NCBI GenBank assembly: GCA_944325865.1 | Contig: CALVBS010000002.1 | Span: 310,001-374,000, forward strand | Direction of reading: 5' to 3' | Source of the DNA: Candidatus Gastranaerophilales bacterium | Lineage (GTDB): Bacteria; Cyanobacteriota; Vampirovibrionia; Gastranaerophilales; Gastranaerophilaceae | Length of the DNA stretch: 64,000 nucleotides | Shown here: positions 35,230 to 58,745 of the stretch, piece by piece | Layout: each line of letters begins with the position of its first letter | Position numbering within the stretch: the first letter of the stretch is position 1 | Program-made: the position numbers and the translations under genes | Notes under the pieces: model-generated | The model's database searches: none | Told to the model about the DNA's origin: nothing | Seen by the model: the letters and a program-made list of their open reading frames with translations, nothing else

Positions 35230-35276
35230 TTTTAATTAGAGGATTTCAGATACCCTCTTTTTTAATGCTTATTGTT

Positions 35277-36839: not shown

Positions 36840-37322
36840 TTATAGATTAATTCCTAAATCATCTACAATAGAATCATCAGCAATAGTAAATTCCTCAATT
36901 AGCTTACAAAGGTTTTCCATATCATCAGAACTTTTTTCTATAAGTTTTTCGTGTAAAATTTCAACTCCACCTAGTAAATATCTCAAGAATAAATCTTCAT
37001 CGGGTTTCGCAAGTTCTGTGTCAATATTCAAAAAAGCCTTTTTAATTCTTTCTTCTGGGGATTCTTCATGTTTAGAGTCCGCTAACATAATTAATTTATA
37101 AATAAAATATATAAATTCTTGTCTAGGTGTTAACTGACTTAAAAATATTGTTTTCTTAAAATCGGAACTATCTGGCTCAGCTTTTCTTTTATATATAAAT
37201 CCTATTAACGGAGCAGTAACATATATCTGCCAAAAGTAATCGAAATATTTCTTTTCTGTTAATTCAACAAACATAGTAGCGTGTTTGCCTGTGACATTAA
37301 AATCTCTAGATATTAGCGTCAT
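36840..37322 (-). CDS. 160-residue protein, last gene of the Dnd-like operon
   Basis: The family is not recognised. It begins MTLISRDFNVTGKHATMFVEL and is helical and acidic toward the end. It starts inside the end of the DndD-like gene (17-base overlap), so it is translated together with it. In canonical dnd operons the gene after dndD is dndE, a small protein of about 110 residues. This one lies in that position but lacks a DndE signature I can see. It is a candidate functional substitute, which is inference from position only. Confidence 0.65.
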   Translation of the reverse strand: MTLISRDFNVTGKHATMFVELTEKKYFDYFWQIYVTAPLIGFIYKRKAEPDSSDFKKTIFLSQLTPRQEFIYFIYKLIMLADSKHEESPEERIKKAFLNIDTELAKPDEDLFLRYLLGGVEILHEKLIEKSSDDMENLCKLIEEFTIADDSIVDDLGINL

Positions 37323-39369: not shown

Positions 39370-39560
39370 TATGACAACCTCTCGATTATTCCGGCAATTT
39401 TTCTTGCCATTTCTGCATCCGAATCCTTATTTGTTCTATTCATATTATCTTTTTCTATTTTTAGAATTTGGTTAACCATACGTTTTCTTTTATCTCTGAT
39501 TTCGTTTTCCACCGGAATTTCTACTGATTCAATGTCGTTATTATCTTCCATTTGAGCCAC
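39369..39560 (-). CDS. 63-residue charged protein in the Dnd-like operon
   Basis: This very small, strongly charged and helical protein begins MAQMEDNNDIESVEIPVENE and ends MARKIAGIIERLS. It is not recognised. A GGAGTGGC ribosome-binding site precedes it, it lies 10 bases after the helicase gene, and it is coupled to dndD by TAATG. Tight packing between two large genes suggests that it is real and part of the complex, perhaps as a linker or a short DndE-like subunit. Confidence 0.6.
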   Translation of the reverse strand: MAQMEDNNDIESVEIPVENEIRDKRKRMVNQILKIEKDNMNRTNKDSDAEMARKIAGIIERLS

Positions 39561-39570
39561 TCCTTAATGA

Positions 39571-41748: not shown

Positions 41749-41752
41749 ATAT

Positions 41753-42898
41753 CTATGTATTTTCCTTTATATAATTTAGAACTTCATTTAATTTTTCAAA
41801 GTCATCATCGCCTGTAAAATAACTTGGACTAAATCTTACAGTTCCTGAAGGATATGTCCCCATATATTTATGTGAATCGGGAGCACAATGCAAGCCTGTC
41901 CTTACTGCGATACCATGTTCGCTCATGACTATACCTATATTCTCGCATGGGTATGTGTCAAAAATGGACGCAATAATTCCGACTTGTTTAAAATTAGGAT
42001 GAATAAAGGTTTTTATGTTATTATGCTTGCTTAATATCTGTAATAATTTATCAAAATTTTCTTTTTCTTTTTCATGAATTGCTTTTATTCCAGTTTCTTT
42101 TATCCATTTTAAAGAAGCATTTAGGCCTGCTATTGCCATAATATTAGGACTCCCGGCTTCAAATCTATCAGGGATGTTGGCTGGCATATTTATGTTTGCA
42201 GAATCAACTCCTGTTCCTCCAAAAATAAAAGTTTTAAGATTGTCTGATTTTTTTAGCACGAAACCAGCAATTCCTGTTGGTGCATAAAGAGTTTTATGCC
42301 CTGCAAAAATTACATAATCAAAGTGATTTACAATAGTTGTATCAAGCAATCCAGCGGTTTGCGACATATCTATAACTGTTTTGGCGGATACTTCATGTGC
42401 AAGTTTAGAAACGTCCTCAATTGGAAATATAAAACCAAACGAATTACTTGCGTGATTCATAATAACAAGTTTGGGTTTATCTATGTTAAATTGTGTTTTA
42501 ATAATGTTTAAATCATATTCAAGAGAGTTTTTATCGGGTTCTATATATTTAATTTTAATCTTATAACGGTTTTTTATTTGTTCTAAAGTCCTTAAAACTG
42601 CATTATGCTCAAACCTTGTAATAAACACAACATCATTTTCATGCCAATTCTGTCCAAATAATATTGTATTCATGGCAATTGTGGATGATGGTGTGAATAC
42701 AGTTTCATAATCCGCATTTGCCTGAAATAAATCAAGTATTAAATCCCTTGTTTCTCTTACTATGTTTGCAGCAATTGAAGCTTCTTTGTATTGCCCTCTT
42801 GAAACATTAACGCCATAATCACGATAAAACGAGTCCATAAAATCATAGACTTGTTCCGGTTTTGGAAATGTGGTTGCAGCATTATCAAAATAGTACAT
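41753..42898 (-). CDS. Cysteine desulfurase (DndA-like role)
   Basis: This 381-residue class V aminotransferase fold has the PLP lysine K202 (FAGHKTLYAP) and the catalytic cysteine C338 (RTGLHCAPDSHKYMGT). It takes sulfur from cysteine as a persulfide. The sequence type is that of the single-gene desulfurase subgroup rather than of IscS or SufS housekeeping enzymes. Inside an operon with a DndC-like enzyme it most likely supplies sulfur as DndA does. It overlaps the 1214-residue ATPase gene (TAATG) upstream. Confidence 0.9.
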   Translation of the reverse strand: MYYFDNAATTFPKPEQVYDFMDSFYRDYGVNVSRGQYKEASIAANIVRETRDLILDLFQANADYETVFTPSSTIAMNTILFGQNWHENDVVFITRFEHNAVLRTLEQIKNRYKIKIKYIEPDKNSLEYDLNIIKTQFNIDKPKLVIMNHASNSFGFIFPIEDVSKLAHEVSAKTVIDMSQTAGLLDTTIVNHFDYVIFAGHKTLYAPTGIAGFVLKKSDNLKTFIFGGTGVDSANINMPANIPDRFEAGSPNIMAIAGLNASLKWIKETGIKAIHEKEKENFDKLLQILSKHNNIKTFIHPNFKQVGIIASIFDTYPCENIGIVMSEHGIAVRTGLHCAPDSHKYMGTYPSGTVRFSPSYFTGDDDFEKLNEVLNYIKENT

Positions 42899-45800
42899 TA
42901 TATAAGAACCTTATTTATTATATCTACTAACACTTGTCTCTTTTCTTCTGAAGATAGAGATTCCCCGTACTCTTCCATCATCGCTTCAGCATCGTTATAT
43001 AATAATTTAGCCTGTGAAGAGTATTCCTTTTTCTCAAATGTTTTAAACTCTTCATGTCCAAAAGCATCTATATAACTAATTTTATAAAATTCTGTTTTAT
43101 TTTTACCTTGTTTAGCGATTTTATTACTATATGCTTCAATGTTATTCTTAAATTTTTCTAATGAAATATTGTACGATTCAATTGTTATTTGATCCCAATC
43201 ATCTATTCTTAATCCGGTTGAAGTTCTGGCAAGCATTTCAATAAATTTATTAGTATCTGCAGTCGGTTTCAAACACAATCCTAACATTTGCTCCTCACTG
43301 CTACTAAAGGCATGCGTTAAGACATCTTCACTAAATTGTTCTGACCAATCTTTTAATACTGATGATAAAGATGCTTTTTTATTCAAATTATTTGTAGCAA
43401 ACATCGATTTCATTTCATCGCTTAAAGTATTAATCAAATTAGCTTTTATATTATCAAGATATTCTTTTGCTGCTAATATATCTTGTTCTATTTTCAATGA
43501 GAATGTATCATATCCAAATATTTCAGGCAATTTATCAAATAAAAATTCTCTGGCATTAATTTCAGGTGCTTTTAAAGAATTTTTGAATTTTAAGATTCTC
43601 TTGTCAAGAGCTTTAGATTTATTTTTATCTACATATTCTGTAGTCATTTCCTTTGTATATTTCGGCAATTGAAAAAACCAACGCTGCATTGCCCTTACAA
43701 TGAATTCGAAGTTGTTATATTCTGTTTCTTCTTCATGCACATATTCAGAAAATGTATTTTTTAAATCTTCAATATATTTTTCTTTTTTTGTATCCCATTC
43801 TTCTAATGCAATATTGTAGTTGTATGGCTCTTCATTAATACTATCTAATAATTTTGCATTAATCTCGACTTCTTTTCCATTTTTAAGTATTACTGCGTAT
43901 TTTTTATAATGATGTAAAACACACGCAATATATATTGGAATTAAGCCCATTTTCATTCCAATATGATGATTAGGTTCGGTTAATATGTCATATAATTCTT
44001 TAAATGACAACTGCTTTTCAGAAGATTTAACTATAAATTTCTTTATTAAATTCAATACATTTTGTAATTTTTTGTTCTTTAAATTTTCTGTATTGATATA
44101 ATATTGACCGGCTTTTTCTACTAAAATCCCTTCGTTCTTAACTGTACTTCTCATAAAACTGACATCTTGACCTGTTGCAATTAGACCCAGATTTTCTTTT
44201 ATATTATTTTCTAATATACCTGCTATAACTTTACTTCTGCTGTTTATCGCTTGACTTGAAAGAATATTCTTATTCAATACTTCATTATTTATTATTGGAT
44301 AATCTTTGTATGTCTCTTCACAAATCTCTGATAATTTTTTAGAAAGTACTGAACGACGATTAATCAGTTCTTCGTGTCCATTATTGTAATATTTTGATTG
44401 ATTTAATTCCGGTCTTAAATATATATCTATAAAATCTGAAATGACATCAGATAATGCATTCAAAGAATATGATAATTCTTCCGATAATATTTCGTCATCG
44501 GTATTATCAATTAAATATTTAATGGCATCATACTTTATAATTTGTTCGTTAATATTATCTCTTTTCTTAGGAACTATAAATATAATTCTTTTGTTATTTA
44601 CATTTTTGTAGGCTTCTTTGAATACTATTTTTTTATCTTCGCTAATTTTAGGAATAACAGCAAATACAATACCATCTGCTCCATCTGATTTTATTACTTG
44701 TTCCCAATCAGTTATTCCATTTAAATCTTCTTGATTAACGAATTTAAAGTTAAAAAATCTGGTAACTTCATTACTATCGTTATATGCATTTGGATATAGC
44801 ACTTTATTTCCAACGAAATCATTTAAAATATCTTTTATTTCTACTAAATTTTTTCGTTCTTCAATAGTATCATTAATTTTTGCTTCTACATTAATATCTG
44901 TATGCTCTGTAATCCTCAAATAATTTCCATTTTCGATCTGTCTTATTATTCCTTTATTTTTTAAATTTGTAAAAGCTTGATTTAATTTTTGAAAATCTGA
45001 TACTGAGTTTTCGAAAATATTAGAGATTAAATTTACAGTAGGAGACAATAATTCAAAATGGTCATATATATATATTAAAGCAATTGTTTTAATAATCTTC
45101 TTCTCTAACAGTTCATTATTATTTAATTTATTTAATGCGGCATAAGCATTTTTCCAATATTTGTGTGTGTCTTTTTTATAATCTTCTGCTTTAAATAATG
45201 GTTCAAAATAATCATATATATAATCAGGCGTTAATATAGGAAAATCTTGATTATTATTCTTTAAAAACGAATAAAGTGTATGTTTCTGATTTCGCGATGA
45301 TAAGAATGTAAATATTGTTCTCTCGTTTTGAGCAATTTTTTCTGAAATATTTGGTAACAGAAATGTAGTTATTGCTTGTAAAGGATAACAACCTATAACA
45401 ATTTTTTCTATATCGTGATATTCAAGACTTGAGAAAGCTTTTGCCTCTTCCCATTTTTTTAACATATTATTAAAACGTTTTTCGTTATCTCTCAGGTAAT
45501 CTTTGTACCAGTTAGGTTCTTGGCATATGATTTTTGACATTAAATCGAATTGCTGTGATAAAGAAGTACTAAACTCAAGAGTTTTAAATCTATTTGATAC
45601 AGCTTTCCAAGCATCAATTTTATTTTTAGGTAATTTATCAACATAGTTTAAAATGCTTTGATGAGAAATTAACAAAATATGCAATTGTTGTTCTTTAGTA
45701 CGGCAACAATTTTCAGCAAAATCTTGTAATGTTTTTATTTCTGCTGCCGATGTTTTATTTAGATTCCCTTCGAGAAATTTACTAAACTCATCATAAATAA

Positions 45801-46542
45801 CATAAATCCCGGTATAACCTTCTTTTTTAAGCGATTTATTGACGGAATTATATAATTCAATAACGTCAATATTTGATATAGGATTAAATTCACTTCCCGC
45901 GGTAAGACTAGGATAAATTTCTTTAAAATTTTCATAATAATCAATATTATAATTTTTTAATTCTGTAATATAGTTGTTAACACTACAATCAATATTCTTT
46001 TTGAATTGATTATATGTAGCTTCATAGTTTTTTTGCCAGTTCAAAATAGTTGTTATAGCAGATTTAAAATATGTATCCGGCATTACATGATCAAGATTGG
46101 CATTTTTCAATGCGGTATTTAATCCAGACATTAATGCCTGTCGTATTCCCATACTACTGCCTTGTATAATAACTGGGAACATCTTCTTTTTACTATCCAA
46201 GTAATTTTTTGTATATGTGCATAATTCAGATTCACCTTTTGTATTTTGCGTACTCTGACAAATATATGACAATAAGTTTGAAAACAATTCCGGTTCTTTT
46301 CTGTACAATAATGAAGCAATTATCAATGCTAAATGGGATTTACCTTTACCATATGCTCCAACAAATATTTTTGCACGGTCATTTGAAGTATTTGATGTGC
46401 TTAACATTATATCTTCTATAATTTCAATTGCACTTGGTGTTGGTATATAGTTTTTAATTTTATCATCGCTGTTAATATCGTATGCAATGTTTATTGCATA
46501 TTGAAAATCTTGCATAATGTTAATATTTTTTGTCAAATCCAT
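42898..46542 (-). CDS. Large P-loop ATPase of the defence operon (BrxC/PglY-like layout)
   Basis: This 1214-residue protein has an N-terminal ATPase with Walker A GAYGKGKS (62-69) and a Walker B-type IYVIYDE (246-252). A sensor-like ISHQS and a very long helical C-terminal part (about 550-1214) without a known domain follow. The G-x-x-G-x-GKSH P-loop and the size recall BrxC/PglY and related giant defence ATPases. It probably couples sensing to the helicase-nuclease or controls modification, which is inference. It lies between the DUF4007 gene (11-base gap) and the desulfurase gene (overlap). Confidence 0.72.
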   Translation of the reverse strand: MDLTKNINIMQDFQYAINIAYDINSDDKIKNYIPTPSAIEIIEDIMLSTSNTSNDRAKIFVGAYGKGKSHLALIIASLLYRKEPELFSNLLSYICQSTQNTKGESELCTYTKNYLDSKKKMFPVIIQGSSMGIRQALMSGLNTALKNANLDHVMPDTYFKSAITTILNWQKNYEATYNQFKKNIDCSVNNYITELKNYNIDYYENFKEIYPSLTAGSEFNPISNIDVIELYNSVNKSLKKEGYTGIYVIYDEFSKFLEGNLNKTSAAEIKTLQDFAENCCRTKEQQLHILLISHQSILNYVDKLPKNKIDAWKAVSNRFKTLEFSTSLSQQFDLMSKIICQEPNWYKDYLRDNEKRFNNMLKKWEEAKAFSSLEYHDIEKIVIGCYPLQAITTFLLPNISEKIAQNERTIFTFLSSRNQKHTLYSFLKNNNQDFPILTPDYIYDYFEPLFKAEDYKKDTHKYWKNAYAALNKLNNNELLEKKIIKTIALIYIYDHFELLSPTVNLISNIFENSVSDFQKLNQAFTNLKNKGIIRQIENGNYLRITEHTDINVEAKINDTIEERKNLVEIKDILNDFVGNKVLYPNAYNDSNEVTRFFNFKFVNQEDLNGITDWEQVIKSDGADGIVFAVIPKISEDKKIVFKEAYKNVNNKRIIFIVPKKRDNINEQIIKYDAIKYLIDNTDDEILSEELSYSLNALSDVISDFIDIYLRPELNQSKYYNNGHEELINRRSVLSKKLSEICEETYKDYPIINNEVLNKNILSSQAINSRSKVIAGILENNIKENLGLIATGQDVSFMRSTVKNEGILVEKAGQYYINTENLKNKKLQNVLNLIKKFIVKSSEKQLSFKELYDILTEPNHHIGMKMGLIPIYIACVLHHYKKYAVILKNGKEVEINAKLLDSINEEPYNYNIALEEWDTKKEKYIEDLKNTFSEYVHEEETEYNNFEFIVRAMQRWFFQLPKYTKEMTTEYVDKNKSKALDKRILKFKNSLKAPEINAREFLFDKLPEIFGYDTFSLKIEQDILAAKEYLDNIKANLINTLSDEMKSMFATNNLNKKASLSSVLKDWSEQFSEDVLTHAFSSSEEQMLGLCLKPTADTNKFIEMLARTSTGLRIDDWDQITIESYNISLEKFKNNIEAYSNKIAKQGKNKTEFYKISYIDAFGHEEFKTFEKKEYSSQAKLLYNDAEAMMEEYGESLSSEEKRQVLVDIINKVLI

Positions 46543-46553
46543 TTTTCCACCCT

Positions 46554-47435
46554 TTAAATACTTAAACTTTCATAATATTTTTTAAGACACTCTATAAATG
46601 ACATTTTTGTCTGTAATTTTACAATATCAAGCCCTGCAGATCTTACGACCCTTATTAATCCTTGGTTCTGCAAATTATCTAAATACTGTGCAACTTGGAT
46701 TTTGTCAAGATTAAAAATTTTACCAATGTTACCAGGATCTTTTTCTATTTTAGAGATTTTTATATCAGTTGCTTTTTCTTTTTCATTTTCTCTAATTATG
46801 ATTGCCAAGATTATAAGCGGGTTAATTGTCGCAAAACTTGGTGCCATTTTAGAGTATATTTTATTCTTTTTATCCAGTAGTTTTATAAGACCTAATTCAG
46901 TTAATGGCGATTCGATATTGCTTTCGGGGTTAAAATCTCTACTATTTGATTTAAAATAAGTTTTGATAATACAATCAAAATCATCTCCTAGTGATTTCTC
47001 TGACACCTGTGTTTCTGGTTCTTCAACACTAATGTAGGATTGAATATCTGATATAAAAGATTCTTTTGTAATTTCATTCATATTGTAAATATTGAAGAAA
47101 TAATACCAAGCTGTCGCCTGTTCCTTATTTGAAACCAACATGTAATGAAGAATACAGAAAGTACCATCTTCCTCCATAAACAAATCGTTATCCCATATTA
47201 ATTGTCCAAGTTCAGTAAACTCTTGATATTTTTGAGTAGTACCAGTCTCTTCTGTCAAACCAAATACCTGTAACCAATAACGCAGAGCTTTGACCATATT
47301 CGACCCAATACCAAGCTCATCCATAGGATTAATATTTTTATCAACAAATAATCTTGGATTATCTTTTATATGTTTCATTCCTTTATGCAACCAGCCTTTT
47401 CTGATTGCAAAAGTATCATGTGCTCTGAACTTCAT
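46554..47435 (-). CDS. DUF4007 family protein
   Basis: This 293-residue protein matches the DUF4007 profile as I know it: FRAHDTFAIRKGWLHKGMKH, LGIGSNMVKALRYWLQVFGL, and LGQLIWDNDLFMEEDGTFCI. DUF4007 genes are repeatedly found beside PAPS-reductase-like genes in phosphorothioation-type loci. A C-terminal winged-helix-like region (NLDKIQVAQYLDNLQNQGLI) suggests DNA binding. It starts 10 bases after the DndC-like gene. Confidence 0.85.
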   Translation of the reverse strand: MKFRAHDTFAIRKGWLHKGMKHIKDNPRLFVDKNINPMDELGIGSNMVKALRYWLQVFGLTEETGTTQKYQEFTELGQLIWDNDLFMEEDGTFCILHYMLVSNKEQATAWYYFFNIYNMNEITKESFISDIQSYISVEEPETQVSEKSLGDDFDCIIKTYFKSNSRDFNPESNIESPLTELGLIKLLDKKNKIYSKMAPSFATINPLIILAIIIRENEKEKATDIKISKIEKDPGNIGKIFNLDKIQVAQYLDNLQNQGLIRVVRSAGLDIVKLQTKMSFIECLKKYYESLSI

Positions 47436-47445
47436 AGATATTCTC

Positions 47446-49164
47446 CTACTTTTTTGCTTTTGTTACTAGGTATCCAGCCATTAAACAACCGGCATCAAGG
47501 TATTTTGCTGTCACACACATTTTGCAATGTCTACATTTGTTTGCGTCTATCTTATATGTATTTTGGTTAACTGTTATTGCTCCAAAATTACATACAGATT
47601 CACACTTTAAGCATTTTCTACAACTATTATATTTTCTAATTTGGTATCCAATCATTCTTTGTAAATCATCATGTTTTTGAACATTCATAGTTTTTACTTT
47701 TATTGCGTACTCATAATTTTGCTGCTGAAATGGTTGCAATGACATTATAGGTATGTTTGTCGCAATGTCAAGCACTAATACCTCTTTTAATAATTTTCTA
47801 CCGAGTTCTTTCGAAACTTTACCAAACGGTGTAAAAAGTGTATAAAAATCATCTGTTATCGGTTTATTTAATTGATAAATTTTTGCATTTTCTTCAGCAG
47901 TACAATTTGTATATTTTATTTTTACATCTTCGGCGGCTATTAAGCCATTTCCACCCTGACGAGCTTTCCACTTTCCTGTATCAACATAAACTTCAGCATC
48001 AGGTTTACCAATTTTTTTAGCGAAATTGACTAAAAACTCTCTCCATTTAGTTGATTCTTCCGGCATGTATATTCTCGATAGGAAAGCGGCTCTATCGTTA
48101 TTGTTAGGACAACACCAACAACCAACTCTATCGTATCCGAGTTTATAAGCATCATTAAAATCAATATTTTCTCCAAGCATATAGAGCCAAATATCAATGT
48201 CTTTCCAATAAAATATAGGTGAAGCAACCACCTGTTTTTTGATTTTTATCGATTCTGCATTATCTTCAATTCTATTGTATTTGCTTCTACTAACAGATTC
48301 ACATTTTCTTATGCCATAAAATGTCAAAAGCTTTTTGTCTCGATAAAGATTGGATAAAATCCTGGTTATAGGTCCTGTTTTAAACATAGTACAGCACCAG
48401 CGCATAACTCTTGATGGTGGCCCTATATCTTCACATACGTGATAAAACTTCTGTTCTTTATTTTTAGAAATTTTTAAAATAATTTTGGGATTATCTTTTC
48501 TAAAACGTTTTAAATATTCATATGTAAGAGGGAATTCTAGTGTTGTATCTCCAAAAATATGTACAAGACCTGGATTACTCAATGCTCTAACAACGAGATC
48601 AGCTACAACCGTTGAGTCTTTCCCTCCAGAAAATGATATGACTATATTTTCGGCAGGATAATCTTTTACAGCATCTTTTATAAAATTAAATGCTTCGTCC
48701 TTAAGATAGGAAAGCCTTTCTTTATTTATTCTAACAAATTTTTGTATGTACTCTGAAAATTTATTTTTTTCGTTATCGACATGGTATTTTTCTAATTCTT
48801 TAATAATGCTATTTGTATCCATTTGTAGACATTTAGAAAATGAAACAAGAACCAATTCTCCATCAATATAATAGCGATTATTAGCACACCATACAGAACT
48901 ATTTATATATTTTAAAGGAATTTTCTTAACGATTTCCATTAATAGACGTTCTTGAGGGAATACAGGTCGTAAATCAGCCGCAAAATATTTTATCTTTTTC
49001 CCACATTCAGGGCAATTATCTAAATTACTATTACAAGGTCTAATTATGGGCACATTACAATGACTACACCAATATATTTCAATAGGTATATCTTCAACTG
49101 TTATTTCTCCACATACTTCGCAGATTTTGTTATCAGTTTCTCTATTACAAGATTTGCACCACAA
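47446..49164 (-). CDS. DndC-like PAPS-reductase-fold enzyme with zinc ribbons and a ferredoxin tail
   Basis: Numbered from an upstream TTG at 49305, the protein has two zinc ribbons (C50/C53/C62/C65 and C80/C83/C98/C101). It then has an ATP-pyrophosphatase PP-loop SGGKDST (226-232). Two cysteine clusters follow, RWCC (302-305) and GCWCC (395-399), as in DndC iron-sulfur enzymes. The tail has CRKCLKCESVC (562-572) and CRHCKMC (591-597), a two-cluster ferredoxin pattern. It would activate DNA phosphate with ATP and transfer sulfur. I prefer the TTG at 49164, because GAGGG lies 7 bases before it and it begins LWCKSCN; the extension to 49305 looks non-coding. It is first of eight tightly packed genes. 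Confidence 0.85.
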   Translation of the reverse strand: MWCKSCNRETDNKICEVCGEITVEDIPIEIYWCSHCNVPIIRPCNSNLDNCPECGKKIKYFAADLRPVFPQERLLMEIVKKIPLKYINSSVWCANNRYYIDGELVLVSFSKCLQMDTNSIIKELEKYHVDNEKNKFSEYIQKFVRINKERLSYLKDEAFNFIKDAVKDYPAENIVISFSGGKDSTVVADLVVRALSNPGLVHIFGDTTLEFPLTYEYLKRFRKDNPKIILKISKNKEQKFYHVCEDIGPPSRVMRWCCTMFKTGPITRILSNLYRDKKLLTFYGIRKCESVSRSKYNRIEDNAESIKIKKQVVASPIFYWKDIDIWLYMLGENIDFNDAYKLGYDRVGCWCCPNNNDRAAFLSRIYMPEESTKWREFLVNFAKKIGKPDAEVYVDTGKWKARQGGNGLIAAEDVKIKYTNCTAEENAKIYQLNKPITDDFYTLFTPFGKVSKELGRKLLKEVLVLDIATNIPIMSLQPFQQQNYEYAIKVKTMNVQKHDDLQRMIGYQIRKYNSCRKCLKCESVCNFGAITVNQNTYKIDANKCRHCKMCVTAKYLDAGCLMAGYLVTKAKK

Positions 49165-49292
49165 AATTTTTCCCTCTTTGGCGTATTGAATCCACAAATT
49201 CTTCTTCCAATACGAATTAAGTTTAGCATAAAAATGATGAAAAATCTTTTTATAGTAAAATATTAACAATATATATTTATAATGGTATTCTA

Positions 49293-49568
49293 CTAAATAC
49301 AACAATAATTAACATCTAAAATATGGATAATATATCTTTCAAAATCTTGGTTGTAGCGTTCGCCGGTGATAAGTTTTGAAACGTAGCTCTCAGTAAGTTT
49401 CAATCTTTTTGCAAGCATTTTTTGTGGCATATTTTTCTGCAGCATTTTGAAACGTATCATTCTTTCCCTGCGATACAGAAAATGGCTTCCACCGTCTTTC
49501 ATATTATTTGGGCTTTTTGCCATTTTTTGCTCAAGCAATTCAATCTGTTTTCTCAATTCTTTACGCAT
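49293..49568 (-). CDS. Small helix-turn-helix DNA-binding protein
   Basis: This 91-residue basic protein has a coiled N-terminus and then an HTH: KMLAKRLKLTESYVSKLITG. AAGGAG precedes its ATG. It lies 130 bases ahead of the Dnd-like operon in the same direction and faces the SAM riboswitch gene across a shared control region. It may be the local repressor of the operon. Its closeness to a transposon end also leaves open a role as the element's repressor. Confidence 0.75.
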   Translation of the reverse strand: MRKELRKQIELLEQKMAKSPNNMKDGGSHFLYRRERMIRFKMLQKNMPQKMLAKRLKLTESYVSKLITGERYNQDFERYIIHILDVNYCCI

Positions 49569-49871: not shown

Positions 49872-50480
49872 ATGGAACAACAAGAAGAAAAAAGTTTGAA
49901 AAACTACTACGCAAAATGCGTACTAAGAAACAAATTCGGGTTATCAGGTGATTTAGCAGAAGTTGTATCAAAATTAATGCTAAATTTCTATGACAAATTT
50001 TTTGAAAACTTTGATCCTGAAAAGGCAAAACATTACCGAAATGCGGCATCAAATATGATGATGGATCCAAGACCTAACTACAATGCCAAGATAGATTTTT
50101 ACATAGGTTTAATGGATAAAGACACAAAATCATACCACTACACAAAGGAACAAGCTAAGCAGAAAGTTTTTGAAGTTTTGGGTGATTGCACAATAACGGA
50201 TGCAACAGGTTGTTATACAAATGAAAAAGGTGAACGTATCATAATGGACACCCTTGTTGCAACTAAAATATTGGAGCGGGTTCCAAAAGATTATCAGCAC
50301 GATACATCTTATAAATTAAAAGAGATTTTTAATCAGTCAAGTATAATTAATGCAGGAAATACCTGTGAGATTAGATATAATAATGAATCGCCAGAGACAA
50401 TACGTTATATTCAAGATATGATGGACGAATATGATTTATTCTGGGAAGAAGCCGAACAAGCCATGAACGCGGGATGGTAA
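49872..50480 (+). CDS. Riboswitch-controlled protein of unknown function
   Basis: This 202-residue acidic, mainly helical protein matches no family I recognise. It begins MEQQEEKSLKNYYAKCVLRN and has a middle strand-rich piece TITDATGCYTNEKGERIIMD. There is no signal peptide, membrane segment or methionine/SAM-enzyme motif. AAAGGAGAA lies 6 bases before the ATG, 47 bases after the attenuator. Being behind a SAM riboswitch suggests a link to methionine, SAM or methylation status. Its place at the front of the transposition genes suggests instead a role for the element. Confidence 0.75.
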   Translation: MEQQEEKSLKNYYAKCVLRNKFGLSGDLAEVVSKLMLNFYDKFFENFDPEKAKHYRNAASNMMMDPRPNYNAKIDFYIGLMDKDTKSYHYTKEQAKQKVFEVLGDCTITDATGCYTNEKGERIIMDTLVATKILERVPKDYQHDTSYKLKEIFNQSSIINAGNTCEIRYNNESPETIRYIQDMMDEYDLFWEEAEQAMNAGW

Positions 50481-50573: not shown

Positions 50574-52562
50574 ATGAACGAAGAAAAATACATTACAATC
50601 AAAGAATTAGCGGAACTCAAAGGTGTAAGTACCCGAGCAATCCGGCTTTCTTTGAAGAAATATGTAATCAGAGAAATTACTGTCAAAGGCGGAAAAAGTT
50701 TTGAGATTTTGTTATCAAGTATTGAACCGGAGCTTCAGGGAAAATATTATTCAAAAATTATTCCGACTTATGAAGTTAAACAACTTCCTGTGCCAACAGA
50801 TTTTCATAAACCTAATAAAGCAAAAATTATTGCACTTGCAAGATTGGATTTATTGAGCCTTTGGCAAAAAGAACGAAAAAATCAAAGTAATAAAACACAA
50901 TTTGATAAGGATTTTTTGAGTGCTTATAACGCACAGGTTTTATATCCCGAGATTTATGCAAAACTCGGAAATGTTTCAATAGGCACACTTCAAAGGTGGA
51001 AGAGAATTTTAGGGAACAGCAATAATTATGAACTTTTAATTCCAAATTACCATTATGAAGATTATTCAAGAACATGTCTAACAGAGCACGAAAAGCAGAT
51101 CTTTTTAAAACTGCTTTTGCATCCGAATAAATTCAGTATCGGGAAAGCGACTTCTTTAACACAATATGTTTTAAAAACTCAGGGTGCGGAATATATTCCT
51201 GCTCCACCAACATTCAGAAAATTTGCCAATTGGTATAAAGCAAATTATTACGACAAGTGGACACTTTTAAGGGATGGCGAAAAAGCTTTAAAAGAAGAAG
51301 TTATTCCGCATATAAAAAGAGATATTTCTAAAATTGAAGTCGGAGATGTTTTGGTTGCTGACGGAAAAAGATTAAATTTTCAGGTAATAAATCCGTTTAC
51401 AGGAAAACCCTGCCGAGCAACATTAATTGGCTTCTTGGATTGGAAAGCAACTGCGCTTGTCGGGTATGAAATAATGATTGAAGAAAATACGCAGAATATA
51501 GCGTCGGCTCTGCGTAATGCAATATTGAATCTGAGCAAAATCCCGAAGTTTGTTTACTTAGATAACGGTAGAGCATTCAGGGGTAAATATTTCACAGGTA
51601 GTGCAAAATTTGATGAGATTGGTTTAAAAGGTATTTATGAAAAACTCGGTATAACAACAGTTTTTGCGAATCCGTATAATGCGAGAGCAAAAGTAATTGA
51701 ACGATTCTTTTTAGAAATGCAAGAAAGTTTTGAAAAGCTGCTTCCAAGTTACATAGGAACAAACATAGAAAACAAACCGGTAAGATTAAGAAGGAACGAA
51801 AAATTTCACTCTGAGATTCATCGGGAATTTGTGCCAACTATTCAACAAATAATTCAGATGATAAACAGCTGGCTTGAGTATAAAAATTCTTTTCCGTGTC
51901 CGAATAATAAATCAAAAACCATTCAGGAAATGCTTAATAGCATTGAAAAACAGGAAATAAACCCAAGAGAACTTGATGATTTGATGCTGGCGCAAGAAAT
52001 TAAAACAATTAAAAGTCAGGGGATAAGATTTTTGAAATCGGATTACTATAATGATGCCCTTTATGGCTTAAGGCAGAAAGTAATAATAAAATACAGTTTG
52101 TTTGATTTAAGTTACATTAATGTTTATACAATATCAGGTAAGTTTTTATGCCGAGCAGACAGAATTACACTAACTCATCCGCTTGCACACTATACCGGAG
52201 AAATTAATGATATAGAAGATTACAAACAGAAAATTCAAAAACAAAAACAACTTAAAAATAAAACAATAAAGGCTTGCAAAGAATTTTTAAATATTGAAGA
52301 TTTAGAAATTTTAGAATGCCGATTGGAAGAAAAAGAAGAAGAAATACATTTACCCCTGCCAAGTATTCAACAGATAGAAATCAAAAAAGAAAAACCGGAA
52401 AAATATAATCCCGCGGTAAGACCGTTATTCAAAACAAGCAGAGAAAGATATGAATACCTGATGGAGCACGGTTGCACATGCAATGACGATAGAATCTGGC
52501 TTAAAGCATATAAAGAATCAAAGGAGTTCAAAGAATATGAAACCAAAATTTGTACTGACTAA
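50574..52562 (+). CDS. Mu/TnsB-type DDE transposase
   Basis: This 662-residue protein has an N-terminal winged HTH (KYITIKELAELKGVSTRAIR), further DNA-binding domains and a retroviral-integrase-fold core. The catalytic triad reads D263 (VLVADGKRL), D330 (FVYLDNGRAF) and E376 (ARAKVIERFF). A Mu-type C-terminal beta domain (KVIIKYSLFDLSYINVY) and a helical tail complete it. It should cut and join the element ends, with the AAA protein choosing the target. It overlaps the next gene by 26 bases. The length matches MuA and TnsB. Confidence 0.92.
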   Translation: MNEEKYITIKELAELKGVSTRAIRLSLKKYVIREITVKGGKSFEILLSSIEPELQGKYYSKIIPTYEVKQLPVPTDFHKPNKAKIIALARLDLLSLWQKERKNQSNKTQFDKDFLSAYNAQVLYPEIYAKLGNVSIGTLQRWKRILGNSNNYELLIPNYHYEDYSRTCLTEHEKQIFLKLLLHPNKFSIGKATSLTQYVLKTQGAEYIPAPPTFRKFANWYKANYYDKWTLLRDGEKALKEEVIPHIKRDISKIEVGDVLVADGKRLNFQVINPFTGKPCRATLIGFLDWKATALVGYEIMIEENTQNIASALRNAILNLSKIPKFVYLDNGRAFRGKYFTGSAKFDEIGLKGIYEKLGITTVFANPYNARAKVIERFFLEMQESFEKLLPSYIGTNIENKPVRLRRNEKFHSEIHREFVPTIQQIIQMINSWLEYKNSFPCPNNKSKTIQEMLNSIEKQEINPRELDDLMLAQEIKTIKSQGIRFLKSDYYNDALYGLRQKVIIKYSLFDLSYINVYTISGKFLCRADRITLTHPLAHYTGEINDIEDYKQKIQKQKQLKNKTIKACKEFLNIEDLEILECRLEEKEEEIHLPLPSIQQIEIKKEKPEKYNPAVRPLFKTSRERYEYLMEHGCTCNDDRIWLKAYKESKEFKEYETKICTD

Positions 52563-53223
52563 AAATGTAAAAGGATTTATCAACCTGATTCATAACCTAA
52601 AAAATAAACCTGATAATATTTCCAAAATTGGTCTGGTTTATGGAAACGCCGGACTTGGCAAAACCAAAACGGCTTTGTATTTATCAATTCAATATGATGC
52701 GATTTATGTTAGGGCAACAAATTCAATGAGTCCAAAATGGATGCTTGAAGAAATAGCAAAAGAACTTGATGAAATTCCAAGATTTTATACAGCAGATATA
52801 TTCAGGCAATGTGTTAATACTCTGAAAACAAATCCGCAGATGATTATAGTTGATGAAATTGATTATCTGTTAAAAGACTTCAGAACAATAGAAACTTTAA
52901 GAGATTTGCATGATGAAACAGGAGTTCAGATTATTCTGGTCGGAATGCAGCTAGCAAAACACAAACTCAAAAAGCATACGCATTTATTTGACAGAATATC
53001 AGAAATTTATAATTTTACTGAATTTGAATATTCTGATATCAAGCAGATTACAGAAGAATTATCCGAAGTTGAAATAACAAAAGATGCTGTACTTTTAATC
53101 CATAACAAAGTAAAAAGCTTCCGACAAATTGTAAATACAATTGATACTTTTGAAAAAGTAGCGCAGGCAAACGGATTAACGCAAATTGACGAAAATATAG
53201 CTCAGGAGGTGCTCGGTGGATAA
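52537..53223 (+). CDS. MuB/TnsC-type AAA ATPase of the transposon
   Basis: This protein of about 228 residues has Walker A GNAGLGKTKT and Walker B MIIVDEIDYL. Arginine-finger-type GVQIILVGMQLAKHK and a C-terminal helical lid follow. MuB and TnsC bind target DNA and activate the transposase. I place the start at the ATG at 52537, which has AAGGAG 7 bases upstream; a longer frame opens at 52483. It overlaps the transposase gene end and is followed by an overlapping third gene. Confidence 0.9.
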   Translation: MKPKFVLTKNVKGFINLIHNLKNKPDNISKIGLVYGNAGLGKTKTALYLSIQYDAIYVRATNSMSPKWMLEEIAKELDEIPRFYTADIFRQCVNTLKTNPQMIIVDEIDYLLKDFRTIETLRDLHDETGVQIILVGMQLAKHKLKKHTHLFDRISEIYNFTEFEYSDIKQITEELSEVEITKDAVLLIHNKVKSFRQIVNTIDTFEKVAQANGLTQIDENIAQEVLGG

Positions 53224-54007
53224 AATTTTAAAAGTCGCAAAAAGGTTAAAAACATTTACTCTCGAAGATATCGTAATGTTCGGCGAAATAGATGCAGATA
53301 TCGCCGGAAAATTTTTGCAAGAATCAGAAAACATAAAATCATGCGAAAATAAGTTTGAATATGTCGAAATCGTAAAAACTGAAGATAAATTTAAAATTAT
53401 TGATAAAAATATTCCGAGTAAAAATTCAGATATTATTGTAGTTACTGCTTGCAAGATATTTTTAGAAAATTGCCAGAATAGAAATATAACCCATAACACT
53501 TTAAACGCATACAGAACTTTTATAAATGCACATATTACCCCATATTTTAAAGATTTTAAATTAAAAGATATTAAAATTTCTGATGTTGAAAATTTCAGAA
53601 AAACTATGCAAAATAAACAAATTTCTGAACGAAGAATTAAAAATATTCTTGCACTCCTGAATCAGATAATAAAATATTTTCAAAATGAAGGTTATATTGA
53701 TAAAACCTGCGTTTTTGAAGTAAAAAGAATTGCAAATATTCCCAAAAGACAAATTCAAATTTTAACTCCGGAACAACTGTCGCAACTTTTTAAAATTCTG
53801 AAAAATAAATATCCATATATGCTTCCTATTGTTCAAAAATTAATCACATTAAAACAGCCTTTGAACACTATTTTAACAGGTGGTGAACAACAAAAGAAAT
53901 CATTGAAACGAAAAATAAGAAAAGATTTTTATAAGATAAAGCAAGAGCTTGGACTTACAAACTATATGTTTGATGATTTAAAGTTCTGTCAAAAATGTGT
54001 AGATTGA
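53216..54007 (+). CDS. Tyrosine-recombinase-like protein without catalytic residues
   Basis: This 263-residue protein has an N-terminal winged HTH (about 1-55) and an SAM-like core-binding domain (about 75-165), NTLNAYRTFINAHITPYFK, as in phage integrases. After LTPEQLSQLFKIL (184-195), where a recombinase would have its first catalytic Arg, the domain is short. The later FDDLK (252-256) sits where HxLR would be, and no Tyr nucleophile follows. It is therefore probably a DNA-binding accessory factor. It starts with GTG behind AGGAGGTG, overlapping the AAA gene by 8 bases. Confidence 0.8.
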   Translation: MDKILKVAKRLKTFTLEDIVMFGEIDADIAGKFLQESENIKSCENKFEYVEIVKTEDKFKIIDKNIPSKNSDIIVVTACKIFLENCQNRNITHNTLNAYRTFINAHITPYFKDFKLKDIKISDVENFRKTMQNKQISERRIKNILALLNQIIKYFQNEGYIDKTCVFEVKRIANIPKRQIQILTPEQLSQLFKILKNKYPYMLPIVQKLITLKQPLNTILTGGEQQKKSLKRKIRKDFYKIKQELGLTNYMFDDLKFCQKCVD

Positions 54008-54120
54008 AATAAAAAGTCATGTAAAAAAGTGTTTGTTTGACATGAATTTGTGCGTAAAAAAGTGTAAAACCGCATTGATTTTTTGGGTAAAAAAGTGTAA
54101 AATCATGTTAGGTATTAATG
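54006..54120 (+). repeat. Array of short repeats at the transposon right end
   Basis: Boxes of the form TAAAAAAGTGT recur at 54020-54032, 54056-54067, 54090-54101 and, weaker, at 54120-54128 (gtaaaaaggtg). An AAATAAAAAGTCATG start lies at 54006. Their spacing of about 30-35 bases is that of TnsB/MuA binding-site arrays. The AAA/DUF4143 gene starts only a few bases beyond them. Confidence 0.75.
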
Positions 54121-54135
54121 TAAAAAGGTGCGAGC

Positions 54136-55434
54136 ATGAAAAGAAAATTACTGGAAAATCTTATAGAATGGAAAAACAAAGAGGGACATAAACCACTGAT
54201 TCTTGAAGGTGCAAGACAAGTCGGCAAAACATGGTTAATGCAAGAATTCGGGAAAACTCAGTATAAAAAGGTTGCATATATTAACTTTGATCGAAATTTA
54301 AAAATGCGTGAAAATTTCGAAATTGATTTGGATACAAAACGATTAATCACGGCAATTAGTCTTGATGCAGAATTTAAAATCACGCCCGAAGATACTTTAA
54401 TTATTTTTGATGAAATACAGGAATGTCCAAGGGCAATAACTTCGCTAAAATATTTTAATGAAGATGCTCCAGAATATGATATTGTTGCTGCAGGTAGTTT
54501 GCTTGGTGTTGCTCATCATTCAGGAACAGGTTTTCCTGTTGGCAAAGTTGAATTTTTAAGACTTTACCCATTGAGTTTTACCGAATTTTTGGATGCGATG
54601 GGTAAAGAACAATATGTTGAATTGATAGAAAAACAAGACTTCCAAATGATAAAACTTTTTAATAACAAATTTGAAGACTTGCTTAAACAATATTGTTATG
54701 TCGGAGGAATGCCGGAAGCAGTTCAGGATTTTGTCAATAATAAAGATTTTAATCAGGTACGAACAATTCAAGAACGTATATTATCATCTTATGAAATGGA
54801 TTTTTCAAAACATATACCGTCAAATACTGTAGAAAAAGCACGTATGTTATGGAACTCAATTCATACACAGCTTGCAAAAGAAAATAAAAAATTTATTTAT
54901 AATGCAATTAAGAAAGGTGCAAGAGCAAAAGAATTTGAAACAGCTTTAACATGGTTAAGAAATAACGGACTTGTCTATCAAGTTCATAAAATTACAAAAC
55001 CTGGTTTACCAATTGGTGCATATACTGATTTGGATGCATTTAAACTTTTTGTATTGGATGTTGGTTTGTTGGGAGCACTATCCGGACTTGAAGCAAAAAC
55101 GATACTCGGTAAATATGAGATATTCCAAGAATTTAAAGGCGCAATTACAGAACAGTATGTTTTACAACAATTTAAAAGTATAGGGATACCTGTATACTAT
55201 TGGACAAATGAAACAAGTCGTTCGGAAGTTGATTTTGTTATTCAAAAAGAATCTAAAGTTATTCCTGTTGAAGTCAAAGCCGCTACAAATTTAAAGGCAA
55301 GGAGTTTAAAAATATATATGGAGCAATTTAAACCTGAATTAGCACTGAGAACTTCTTTAGCAGATTATAAAAAGACAGAAAATCTTGTGGATATACCATT
55401 GTATGCAATAGAAATAATTAAAGAGGAATTATGA
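54136..55434 (+). CDS. AAA_14/DUF4143 ATPase
   Basis: This 432-residue protein has an N-terminal AAA domain with Walker A GARQVGKTWLMQEF and Walker B LIIFDEIQECPRA, then AAGSLLGV. The C-terminal DUF4143 domain contains TEQYVLQQF and SEVDFVIQ, a PD-(D/E)XK-like fold that usually lacks activity but here keeps E-V-D-F and a following VEVKA. Such proteins are common single genes in gut bacteria. Here the stop overlaps the OLD-family gene start (ATGA), so it is part of the defence unit. Confidence 0.88.
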   Translation: MKRKLLENLIEWKNKEGHKPLILEGARQVGKTWLMQEFGKTQYKKVAYINFDRNLKMRENFEIDLDTKRLITAISLDAEFKITPEDTLIIFDEIQECPRAITSLKYFNEDAPEYDIVAAGSLLGVAHHSGTGFPVGKVEFLRLYPLSFTEFLDAMGKEQYVELIEKQDFQMIKLFNNKFEDLLKQYCYVGGMPEAVQDFVNNKDFNQVRTIQERILSSYEMDFSKHIPSNTVEKARMLWNSIHTQLAKENKKFIYNAIKKGARAKEFETALTWLRNNGLVYQVHKITKPGLPIGAYTDLDAFKLFVLDVGLLGALSGLEAKTILGKYEIFQEFKGAITEQYVLQQFKSIGIPVYYWTNETSRSEVDFVIQKESKVIPVEVKAATNLKARSLKIYMEQFKPELALRTSLADYKKTENLVDIPLYAIEIIKEEL

Positions 55435-57037
55435 TAAAAAAAATTATAATAAAAAATTATAAACAATTTGAGGATTTTAGTCTTGACCTAAATCCTGATA
55501 TTAATATAATAGTTGGAAATAATGAAGCAGGCAAAACAACTTTATTTGAGGCTATAAATCTTGGACTTACACAAAAACTAAATGGTAGATTGATTGCACA
55601 AGAGCTGACACCATATCTTTTTAATATTAAAGCAAGGGATCTATATTTAAAGGAATTGAAAGAGAATCCAAAAACTGCAAAACTACCTGAGATACTTATT
55701 GAGATTTACTTTACTGACGATATTAGTGGAGATTTTAAAGGAAGCATAAATTCATTAAAAGAAGATTGTGCGGGTGTTTCTTTAAGAATATGTTTTGACA
55801 GTGATTTTCAAAAAGAGTACGAAAAATATATAATTGAACCTGAAAAAGTTAAAGAAATACCAATAGAATATTATAAAGTTGAATGGTATAGTTTTGCAAG
55901 TAATCCATTTAGATTTTTGGAACTGCCTATAAAATCACATTTAATCGATAATATTGAACATAGATATATACAAGGATCAGATAAATATATTGCTGAACTT
56001 GTTGGAGACTATTTAGATGAAACACAAAAGTCATTATTGGCACTAAAATATAGACAATTGAAAGAAGAATTTACAGGAGATGAAAAAATAAAAAGCATTA
56101 ATGATGAGTTTCAAAGTACAGGAACTTCTATCTCTGATAAAAATGTCCAAATTTCAATTGATATATCTGCAAAGAATTCTTGGGATTCTATATTATCACT
56201 ATATTTTGATGATATACCTTTTAAATTTATTGGCAAAGGTGAACAAAATTCTGTAAAAATAAAATTGGCATTAAAAGAAAAACTTGAACAATCAGATATA
56301 ATTATGATAGAAGAACCGGAAACAAGTCTGTCTTTTTCAAATTTAAATAAATTAGTAAGTGTTATTTCCAAAGTGTGCGAAGGTAAACAATTACTAATTA
56401 GTACTCACAGTTCTTTTGTTGCAAATAAAACCGGTATTGATAAATTAATTCTATTAAACAAGAATAAAAGTTTTAAAATAGCTGATTTATCCCCGGATAC
56501 ATATGAATATTTTAAAAAATTGTCCGGTTATGATACTTTGCGTATGATTCTTGCAACTAAAAGCATTTTAGTTGAAGGACCATCTGATGAATTGATTATT
56601 CAAAAAGCATATTATGATACATACGATAAACTACCAATAGAAGAAGGTACAGATGTAATAGCTGTCTCATCTTTAGCGTTTAAAAGATTTCTCGAAATTG
56701 CAAAAGGATTGAACCTTAATACGGTTGTGGTTACTGATAATGATGGTAATATAGCAAAACTAAAAGAAAAATATAGTGATTATTTAAATGAAGAGAATAT
56801 AAAAATATGTTTTTCAGCAGATGCAAATCTTAATACTTTAGAACCAAATATGTATGCAGCAAATGGATACGATAAATTAAAGGTGCTGTTTACAAGACCG
56901 GCCAACGATACAGAAGAACAATTTAAAAAATTTTTTATATCAAAAACAACAAAACAAAAGTTGCATTAACTATTTTTGATACAGAAAAAGGGACTGTAGA
57001 TTTTCCACAGTATATAAAAGATGCCATTAAAAAATAA
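55431..57037 (+). CDS. OLD-family (GajA-like) ATPase-nuclease with a frameshift near the end
   Basis: The protein has an N-terminal ABC-type ATPase with Walker A GNNEAGKT (29-36) and Walker B IIMIEEPE (290-297). A TOPRIM nuclease domain follows with E382 (VEGPSDE) and DND (436-438). The frame stops at 56969 (512 residues). Shifting one base at the A5 run 56942-56946 restores reading into VALTIFDTEKGTVDFPQYIK up to 57037, which fits the family's ending. The intact gene would be about 535 residues. It pairs with a UvrD-like helicase, the Gabija arrangement. The break may be a mutation, a phase-variable tract or a sequence error. Confidence 0.82.
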
Positions 57038-58154
57038 TATTTTAATACACTCAACAGCAGGCTCCGGGAAAACAACTTGTTTAGTCAAAGTTGCATTGAA
57101 TAATGCTGATAAAAAAATTTTAATAACAACTTATACGAGAAACAATGCTCAAGAAATTAAAAATAAATTTGTTGAATTAAATGGCTATGTACCGAAAAAT
57201 GTAGAAATCACAACTTGGGAAACATTTCTACTTAAAAATTGTATAAGACCTTATCAAAATCTAATGGGCTTTGAAGATAGAATTTATCAAGTCTATTTTA
57301 CAAATACAGATCCACATTTAAGAAAAGGGAGTAATGGTAAATATTACTATACAATAAAGAAAAGTAATGACATTCAGCGATATTATTTAACTTCTAACGG
57401 CCGAATTTATTCTTGCAAAATATCTGAATTTGCTGATGATTGTCATAAAATGGTAAAAGGTAAAATGCTTCAGCGAATGGAAGAATGTTACGATTATATA
57501 TTTGTGGATGAAGCTCAAGATTTTGCCGGATATGATTTTGAAATAATGAATTTGATATTAAAATCTAAAAATATAAAATCAATTATTGTGGCAGACAAAA
57601 GACAAAATACCTTTGATACACACCATTCAAAGAAAAATAAAAAATATGCTGAAAATATTATAGAATGGTTTAAGGTTTTAGAAAATAAAAAACTTGCAAA
57701 GTTAAACTATTTAAATAATACTTGGCGTTGTAATCAACAAATTTGTGATATTGCAGATTCTTTATATCCAGAGTTACCTAAATCCATATCAAAAAATAAA
57801 ATTACCACAGAACATGACGGATTATTTTATGTGAAAAATAATAATTTAAAAAAATACATAAATAGGTATAATCCTGTTGTTTTAGCGTATGGCAAAAATT
57901 CTTGTAATGATTTAGAAACCGACATAAAGACAATGAATTTCGGAATCTCCAAAGGTTTGACTTTCGATAGGGTTATAATAAAACCAACAGAAAAAATTAT
58001 GAATTTTCTTAAATATGGTAATATTCCTGAGAAAGCAAAAGAAAAGCTCTATATTGCTATAACAAGAGCACGATACAGCGTGGGGTTTATAGTTCCAAAT
58101 GATATAGATTTAGATTCTTTTTATAATAAAAAAATTGTTGAGTGGTGTGAATAA
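57021..58154 (+). CDS. UvrD-like (GajB-like) helicase
   Basis: This 377-residue SF1 helicase shows Walker A STAGSGKTTC (11-20), motif II FVDEAQDF, NNTWRCNQQI, GISKGLTFDRVII and the motif VI LYIAITRARY. At 377 residues it is smaller than most GajB proteins (about 490). It keeps all core motifs, but the 1B/2B insertions appear reduced. Its start lies inside the restored end of the OLD gene, so the two were made as a coupled pair. In Gabija, GajB senses DNA termini and activates GajA. Confidence 0.86.
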   Translation: MPLKNNILIHSTAGSGKTTCLVKVALNNADKKILITTYTRNNAQEIKNKFVELNGYVPKNVEITTWETFLLKNCIRPYQNLMGFEDRIYQVYFTNTDPHLRKGSNGKYYYTIKKSNDIQRYYLTSNGRIYSCKISEFADDCHKMVKGKMLQRMEECYDYIFVDEAQDFAGYDFEIMNLILKSKNIKSIIVADKRQNTFDTHHSKKNKKYAENIIEWFKVLENKKLAKLNYLNNTWRCNQQICDIADSLYPELPKSISKNKITTEHDGLFYVKNNNLKKYINRYNPVVLAYGKNSCNDLETDIKTMNFGISKGLTFDRVIIKPTEKIMNFLKYGNIPEKAKEKLYIAITRARYSVGFIVPNDIDLDSFYNKKIVEWCE

Positions 58155-58745
58155 TTAATTTTAAACTTGACTGAACTTATATTTTTTAAGGGTAATTTTA
58201 GTTGTTTTGTAATGTGTTTAGAGTATTGATTTTACTGATATTTAAACGTGATAAATACTTCCGGCTTACTTCCGAGTTGAATAACACCCTTTTCAAATGG
58301 GACTTTTTTGTCCTGAATATGTCATCGCTACGATATAGAGTGTGTTTGAGTTATATTGATTTGCTTGGATTTATACTGGATTTTTTCGTGACAAAAAGTG
58401 GACAAAAAGAGTAGTTTCGTTACATTTGAGTCAATTCGTATAAAATCGCTATAACCACAACGTGTGGGCTAACATAGGCTAATTAATTACAATTCAAATG
58501 TCCCAAATAAACCCCAGTGAGATACGCACCAAATTTGAATTGTACGGATAATTTGATTATTTTGGAATAGTCCAGTTCCGCAAAATTTTAAAAATTTTAA
58601 AACAAAGTCTGTATAAAGATAACCATGGTAGTATAAAAGATATGTAAAAATATCCAAATTTAAATTTTTACCTGTCATCAAATCAACTGTCAGCTTGCAA
58701 TCATTATTTCAGGTGCTAATATGAAATTGCAAAAAGCTTAAAACA
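58155..58745. other. Right-edge intergenic region of the accessory segment
   Basis: No gene of more than about 70 codons can be supported. GGGACTTTTTTGTCCTGAA (58299-58317) is a near match to GGGACATTTTGTCTGAA at 35317-35333. ACAATTCAAAT (58490-58500) and ATTTGAATTGT (58532-58542) form an 11-bp inverted repeat with a 31-base spacer. A TGACAAAAAGTGGACAAAAA tandem lies near 58389-58408. A right boundary of the accessory segment is plausible here. Confidence 0.5.

Follow-up and report, generated by a model that had tools for sequence, protein, structure and literature searches.

Behind the transposase and ATPase genes of a Mu-like transposon in a Candidatus Gastranaerophilales genome lies a third gene whose product resembles a tyrosine integrase deprived of its catalytic residues, and the question raised by this locus is what such a protein contributes to the movement of the element. 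A sequence-only reading of the locus had proposed that an integrase fold was turned here into a target selector, which may recognise tRNA or attachment sites. Here we examine the element, the protein and their relatives within the order. The window referred to throughout is the whole 64,000-nucleotide stretch of contig CALVBS010000002.1 that was analysed, and plain coordinates are positions in it.

The ends of the element could be fixed because near-identical copies (G127, G291, G112 and G244; 99.1-99.98 percent identity) have different flanks. The element and its surroundings comprise the following features:

35155-35230 (+), tRNA-Met (cat), presumed to have been targeted both by the element and by the adjoining older remnant (ARAGORN; occupied also in G012)
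35270-35472 (no strand), stretch between tRNA and element, probably left from the end of an older element, containing TTTTAACGGGACATTTTGTCTGAACG (resembles short-clade left ends; common to two relatives past the same tRNA)
35473-35477 (no strand), left copy of the 5-bp target-site duplication GTGAG (copy comparison and flank check)
35478-58516 (+), whole Mu-like element, 23,039 bp (near-identical copies with different flanks; target duplication)
35478-35536 (+), left end, TACTGTGCATGAGGGATTCTGACATAATATATGCCGAGTTTGACATATAAGTCGGAAG, in which an imperfect internal repeat probably provides transposase sites (conserved in the clade A copies)
36840-49305 (-), cargo: phosphorothioate defence genes SspA/B/C and SspD or BrxP-like, with PbeA/PbeC-like effectors (PADLOC models)
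49293-49568 (-), small HTH_3 regulator heading the transposition module and divergent from it (Pfam; conserved in the G043 copy)
49872-50480 (+), 202-aa protein with no convincing match in family searches, absent from the G043 copy
50574-52562 (+), MuA-like DDE transposase, 662 aa (phrog_310, E=6.7e-92; Mu-transpos_C, E=2.7e-13)
52483-53223 (+), MuB/TniB-like AAA+ ATPase, 246 aa or less (phrog_296, E=1.4e-46; AAA_22; TniB, E=5.4e-7)
53216-54007 (+), third gene, integrase-derived presumed target selector, 263 aa (Pfam, alignments, dN/dS, AF2 model)
54018-54131 (+), direct repeats around GTAAAAAAGTGT directly after the third gene, similar in relatives; candidate promoter, operator or protein-binding sites (sequence)
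54136-58154 (+), cargo: PDC-S01 AAA/DUF4143 gene and Gabija GajA-GajB (Pfam, PADLOC)
58428-58516 (+), right end, finishing in GTCCCAAATAAACCCCA (same terminal sequence in 11 other loci, including overlapping retrievals of one site)
58517-58521 (no strand), right copy of the 5-bp duplication GTGAG (copy comparison and flank check)

The element has the marks of a Mu-like transposon, namely a MuA-type DDE transposase (containing the motifs VADGKR, YLDNG and VIERFF), a MuB-type ATPase, GTGAG on both sides and a right end closing in CA. Many copies of the element begin with TG and all finish with CA; the window copy begins with TA. The 5-bp duplication was verified in the window element only, G291 and G244 showing none and the G127:C2 copy (L131, L190), a member of the window clade, having instead a 15-bp direct repeat, AAGACGAAAACTCCA, on both flanks. 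The locus had been described beforehand as a Mu/Tn7-like transposon with the integrase relative as its third gene; the Mu-like MuA-MuB operon and the third gene stand, and the likeness to Tn7 is loose, since neither TniQ (Pfam scan of operon and neighbouring proteins) nor TnsA (operon proteins) was recognised.

This one transposon carries two defence systems, with the Ssp/Pbe phosphorothioate genes on its left side and, on its right, Gabija with PDC-S01; the cargo of the G043 relative differs, consisting of restriction genes and an OLD/UvrD pair. In L036, L037 and L033, too, the third gene is followed by direct repeats of the type AAAAGTCGTGTAAAAAATGTGCAA, and a small conserved protein (KNKLTKETL...NWYIER type) recurs in the window (35902-36204, minus strand), in L033 (5938-6261) and in L045 (4921-5154 and 9470-9703).

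The third ORF starts with GTG and shares its first 8 nt with the MuB-like gene, the order being MuA-like, MuB-like and third gene. Its product consists of three parts:

53216-53386 (+), winged-helix domain, residues 1-57; the constant module, in relatives also fused to non-integrase domains (AF2 model, relatives)
53432-53731 (+), core-binding (CB) domain, residues 73-172; the variable module, which follows the target tRNA in relatives (Pfam, model, Mantel tests)
53732-54004 (+), shrunken remnant of the catalytic domain, residues 173-263, under purifying selection (dN/dS 0.15; box comparison)

A Pfam match to Phage_int_SAM_3 covers residues 79-131 (E=1.6e-10), and the winged helix, the CB domain and a helical remnant are all visible in an AlphaFold model built from 22 aligned sequences (pLDDT 82); a single-sequence prediction (pLDDT 43) was set aside. 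Among the best structural matches of the CB domain is that of lambda Int (2oxo; Z 13.2, rmsd 1.8 Å over 93 residues), and residues 71-263 can be superposed on DNA-bound lambda Int (1z1b; Z 13.5, rmsd 4.4 Å over 185 residues). The fold prediction and alignment suggested by the sequence-only reading thus bear out its view that an integrase CB domain and a winged HTH are retained, and by its CB fold the protein belongs by descent to the tyrosine recombinase/integrase superfamily. As an enzyme it lacks the catalytic R-K-H-R-(H/W)-Y set of that superfamily. The loss of the Arg/His/Arg/Tyr residues, which had been read from FDDLK in box II and a missing Tyr, is confirmed: box I reads LKQPLN and not GxRxxE, box II FDDLK and not HDLRH, and the catalytic-box comparison found box III as well as the Tyr to be absent. 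An ordinary, active-looking integrase of the same genome (L003) retains R, K, H, R and Y (GMRRGE, HDLRH, Tyr). The observation of a dead recombinase is well supported. A pseudogene or frameshift was considered and rejected, as the missing catalytic part occurs in no other downstream frame and selection on the gene is purifying.

Homologues of the third protein were found in 24 of the 99 relatives searched, all of which are genome assemblies, many of them metagenomic, that share descent. Within the order Gastranaerophilales, 152 of 286 genomes have the MuB-like gene, and of 114 MuB contexts 113 have an ORF that begins where MuB stops; nearly all of these ORFs belong to the third-protein family, and a few run off the end of a contig. 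Two further members occur in the window's own genome, one beside tRNA-Ile (L038, G000:C7:69641-70150) and one that is cut by a contig end (L242, G000:C11:42012-42845). No relatives were found in the phage collection or viral contigs searched, and a phage origin is therefore not supported. The proteins form a size series, from 549-568 aa with an extra domain, through full-length forms of 357-364 aa and the window clade of about 260 aa, to forms of 164-205 aa that consist of winged helix and CB domain only. All nine full-length relatives compared have lost the box-II His and eight of them the Arg-I; the Tyr is kept in all nine and the Arg-II in most full-length forms. Box III and the Tyr are entirely absent from the window clade and the short clade. 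Despite these losses the gene is conserved: dN/dS is 0.15 in the window clade and again 0.15 in its C-terminal remnant, and in the elements at tRNA-Ile it is 0.046 overall and 0.025 for the CB domain, which is under stronger conservation there than MuB.

Where the relatives insert was analysed with tRNA and tmRNA genes called by ARAGORN. Of 64 contexts from the short and the full-length clade that include 5 kb or more of sequence before MuB, 50 have a tRNA or tmRNA gene on the same strand in the 5 kb upstream of MuB, against 3.0 expected (38 tRNAs in 2.03 Mb), and none has one there on the opposite strand. Over all contexts, the nearest upstream tRNA or tmRNA gene is on the same strand and reads toward the element in 77 of 77 cases. 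In the window clade, with its long cargo between left end and MuB, an upstream tRNA was present in 11 of 19 well-covered contexts, always on the same strand. Because the elements share descent, binomial figures for this adjacency are descriptive only, and the variety of targets is the better argument for tRNA homing. About 20 kinds of tRNA gene, in addition to tmRNA, serve as targets, namely those for Ile, Leu (three), Met, Arg, Lys, Asp, Gly (two), Gln, Val (two), Ala (two), His, Thr, Ser (three) and Tyr, while six elements (L160, L164, L171, L176, L210 and L215) lie directly past tmRNA (ssrA). Left ends mostly start about 35-120 bp beyond the 3' end of the tRNA, past its terminator, and hence the tRNA stays whole. 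At several sites, left ends are stacked behind the same tRNA in one orientation. The comparison of insertion sites that had been suggested from the sequence therefore places the relatives downstream of tRNA and tmRNA genes in one orientation, and their tRNA-directed, oriented insertion is well supported.

In the window, the left end lies 248 bp from tRNA-Met, behind the older remnant, and in G012 another member of the family occupies the same tRNA-Met with the same MATE gene adjoining. A clean empty tRNA-Met site was sought among relatives of the genus and none was found, as contigs end there or other elements occupy the site. Beyond the right end of L138, which was joined with L193 (G244:C30), a 20-bp duplication of the 3' end of tRNA-Val flanks the site, which indicates that the Mu-like element lies inside an older island of the integrase type.

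What sets the address was examined in 57 elements with a tRNA or tmRNA gene within 8 kb by Mantel permutation, in which some effects of descent and of recombination between stacked elements may persist. The winged helix is much alike in all members and the CB domain is variable. CB identity correlates with a shared isoacceptor (r 0.47, p=0.0005, n=57), also when MuB identity is given (partial r 0.43, p=0.0005); once CB identity is given, neither MuB (0.06, p=0.13) nor the winged helix (0.05, p=0.20) predicts the isoacceptor. With close relatives left out (MuB identity below 80 percent), nearest neighbours share the isoacceptor in 23 of 57 cases by CB domain, in 3 of 57 by MuB and in 1 of 57 by winged helix. 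One CB type goes with tRNA-Ile across two MuB lineages, another with tRNA-Met and yet another with tmRNA, Ser, Lys and Arg. The T-arm as the sole recognised sequence is not supported, CB similarity not following it across different amino-acid types (partial r 0.05, p=0.14). The tmRNA targets, together with a tRNA 3' fragment near the left end of the element in G291, suggest that the 3' part of the tRNA gene matters.

Since relatives insert past tRNA genes in a fixed direction and the CB domain tracks the choice of tRNA, the third protein is the element's probable address reader. We put at about 0.74 the probability that it selects the target for a Mu-like transposon that homes to tRNA genes, with the winged helix as adaptor and the CB domain as reader of tRNA genes. 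The selector role that had been guessed at from the sequence accordingly gains support from oriented insertion, from the CB type following the isoacceptor and from purifying selection, all of it comparative evidence.

The CB domain is not the sole route to tRNAs. No MuB element without a third gene, which could have served as a control, was found; elements with a divergent MuB (38-44 percent; L250-L258), and L249, mostly have the same winged helix fused to a different C-terminal domain of about 170 aa without a convincing Pfam or PDB match, and a same-strand tRNA lies within 5 kb in 4 of 10 of these non-integrase contexts. tRNA homing is thus more ancient or more widespread than the integrase domain. 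The CB domain is best regarded as one among several readers that can be joined to the winged-helix adaptor, and part of the choice of tRNA may lie with MuA, MuB or the winged helix. In L250-L254 the first set is followed, about 2-4 kb downstream, by another Mu-type transposase and another, more distant MuB-like gene, which looks like a combination of two transposition modules. The long third proteins of 549-568 aa belong to L246-L248, and that of L246 has a Mu I-gamma-like DNA-binding domain, of the end-binding kind, between the winged helix and the integrase part.

These sister and long forms bear on the likeliest alternative, namely that the tRNA preference stems from MuA, MuB, the winged helix or the DNA structure at tRNA terminators, the integrase part being accessory (in end-binding or transpososome assembly, for example) and the match between CB domain and tRNA being due to local exchange of third genes between stacked elements. 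The adjacency of the non-integrase elements to tRNAs, the common stacking at one tRNA and the end-binding domain of L246 would all agree with it. We nevertheless judge it unlikely, for MuB and winged-helix similarity predict no tRNA once the CB domain is known, local recombination would need to hit the CB half of the gene while sparing its neighbours, and the CB domain is more conserved than MuB in the tRNA-Ile elements.

The third protein could also be a dead recombinase that binds DNA to repress or otherwise regulate transposition, in the manner of MrpR (SPbeta) and SroF (phi3T). MrpR is without equivalents of Arg-I and His-II and keeps its Tyr, as the full-length forms do (PMC10516654), both proteins are matched by our model (Z 7-9), and repeats follow directly after the third gene. 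However, the gene stands last in the MuA-MuB operon, where it overlaps the MuB gene, the position of a repressor is taken by a separate HTH_3 gene, and regulation would leave the link between CB type and tRNA unexplained; we regard this role as quite improbable. That a decaying integrase was left as a chance passenger by an older island at the tRNA is scarcely credible: although the protein is shortened and has lost its catalytic set, and tRNA sites also host integrase-type islands (as with the tRNA-Val 3' duplication in G244), the element has a transposase, ends and a 5-bp duplication of its own, and the gene keeps its order across the taxonomic order, with intact frames and dN/dS of 0.03-0.2. 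Had this copy simply degraded, related elements with an active full-length integrase might be expected, and there is none among the nine full-length relatives; the fixed gene order, the purifying selection and the loss of catalytic residues even from full-length forms all argue that the third protein is not a decayed copy. That the protein still recombines DNA in trans, together with a partner enzyme, for instance in cointegrate resolution, is very improbable too, for the Tyr and mostly the Arg-II survive in full-length forms but all of these have lost the box-II His, and box III and the Tyr are wholly absent in the window and short clades.

As target selector, the third protein would bind a particular tRNA or tmRNA gene with its CB domain, which descends from a tyrosine integrase, and the winged helix would be the constant adaptor that presumably contacts the MuB-like ATPase or the MuA-like transposase. 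MuB would be loaded next to the tRNA gene and MuA would insert the element directly beyond the tRNA terminator, in one orientation and with a 5-bp duplication. As strand transfer is by the DDE transposase, recombinase chemistry would have become useless and then been lost, probably stepwise, with the catalytic residues going first and part or all of the catalytic domain following. On a broader proposal our judgement is evenly balanced: the Mu branch may have evolved its own modular address system, in which a winged-helix adaptor, analogous to TniQ and of unrelated origin, is combined with interchangeable dead-integrase CB domains that each read a particular tRNA or tmRNA gene, so that the target can be reprogrammed by the swap of one domain, with other C-terminal domains serving the same adaptor in the sister elements.

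If true, a dead integrase has become a target selector in the Mu branch too, besides the Tn7-like Tn6022, and has done so in a simpler protein and without TniQ, while Mu-like elements, known for near-random insertion, would gain homing beside tRNA genes. It would also explain how defence islands build up at tRNA genes in these gut bacteria without an active integrase. With their matching CB domains, the roughly 20 target types make up a natural collection from which rules of DNA reading can be worked out, and a short selector (~170-190 aa) with a swappable reader would be a useful start for directed DNA insertion.

No published description of this element family was found in the open-access literature, and the element is best placed by comparison with known systems. 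With phage Mu it shares a MuA-like transposase (phrog_310), a MuB-like ATPase (phrog_296), TG...CA ends in many copies and a 5-bp duplication. Insertion of phage Mu is almost random, whereas the relatives of this element home to tRNA genes, and its cargo consists of defence genes. Ordinary tyrosine integrases (lambda Int fold, Tn1549 Int) have the CB fold in common with the third protein and many attach at tRNA genes, but here there is no catalysis and MuA inserts beyond the tRNA gene, leaving it intact. MrpR, a dead recombinase serving as a repressor (PMC10516654), and SroF likewise turn the tyrosine-recombinase fold into a non-catalytic DNA-binding protein, as is predicted here from structure; those, however, are prophage repressors outside any transposase operon.

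Tn7-like elements reach tRNA genes via TnsD/TniQ or CRISPR guides (PMC11406308), and CRISPR guides have been reported for Mu-like transposons as well (PMC11656645). Oriented, site-specific insertion beside tRNA genes and a constant adaptor with a variable DNA reader are common to the guided Tn7-like elements and the present one, but here the reader is an integrase CB domain, no TniQ or CRISPR parts were recognised, and the operon proteins gave no match to the TnsA endonuclease and TniQ that go with TnsB-TnsC in Tn7-like elements. An unrelated solution to the need filled by TniQ/TnsD had been suggested for this locus, but it is not wholly unrelated to known solutions, given the precedent of TnsF of Tn6022 (PMC10293859). 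TnsF is an inactivated tyrosine recombinase which was shown by experiment to bind comM, to work through TniQ and to be required for transposition (Faure et al. 2023, PMC10293859); it has 498 aa, with zinc fingers in an N-terminal region of ~199 aa and tandem CB1-CB2 domains, belongs to a TnsABC element, and had no homologues in other systems that its authors could find by sequence (PMC10293859). Both are dead recombinases with a CB fold and a partial catalytic domain, found with DDE strand transfer and an AAA+ regulator. Compared with the published description of TnsF, the third protein has a winged helix and a single CB domain, with no zinc-finger region or cysteine-rich N-terminus, and it belongs to the MuA-MuB branch, in an operon where TniQ and TnsA were not recognised, with tRNA and tmRNA genes as targets and not comM. 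TnsF is hence the closest precedent for the third protein, from which it differs in architecture, partner and target.
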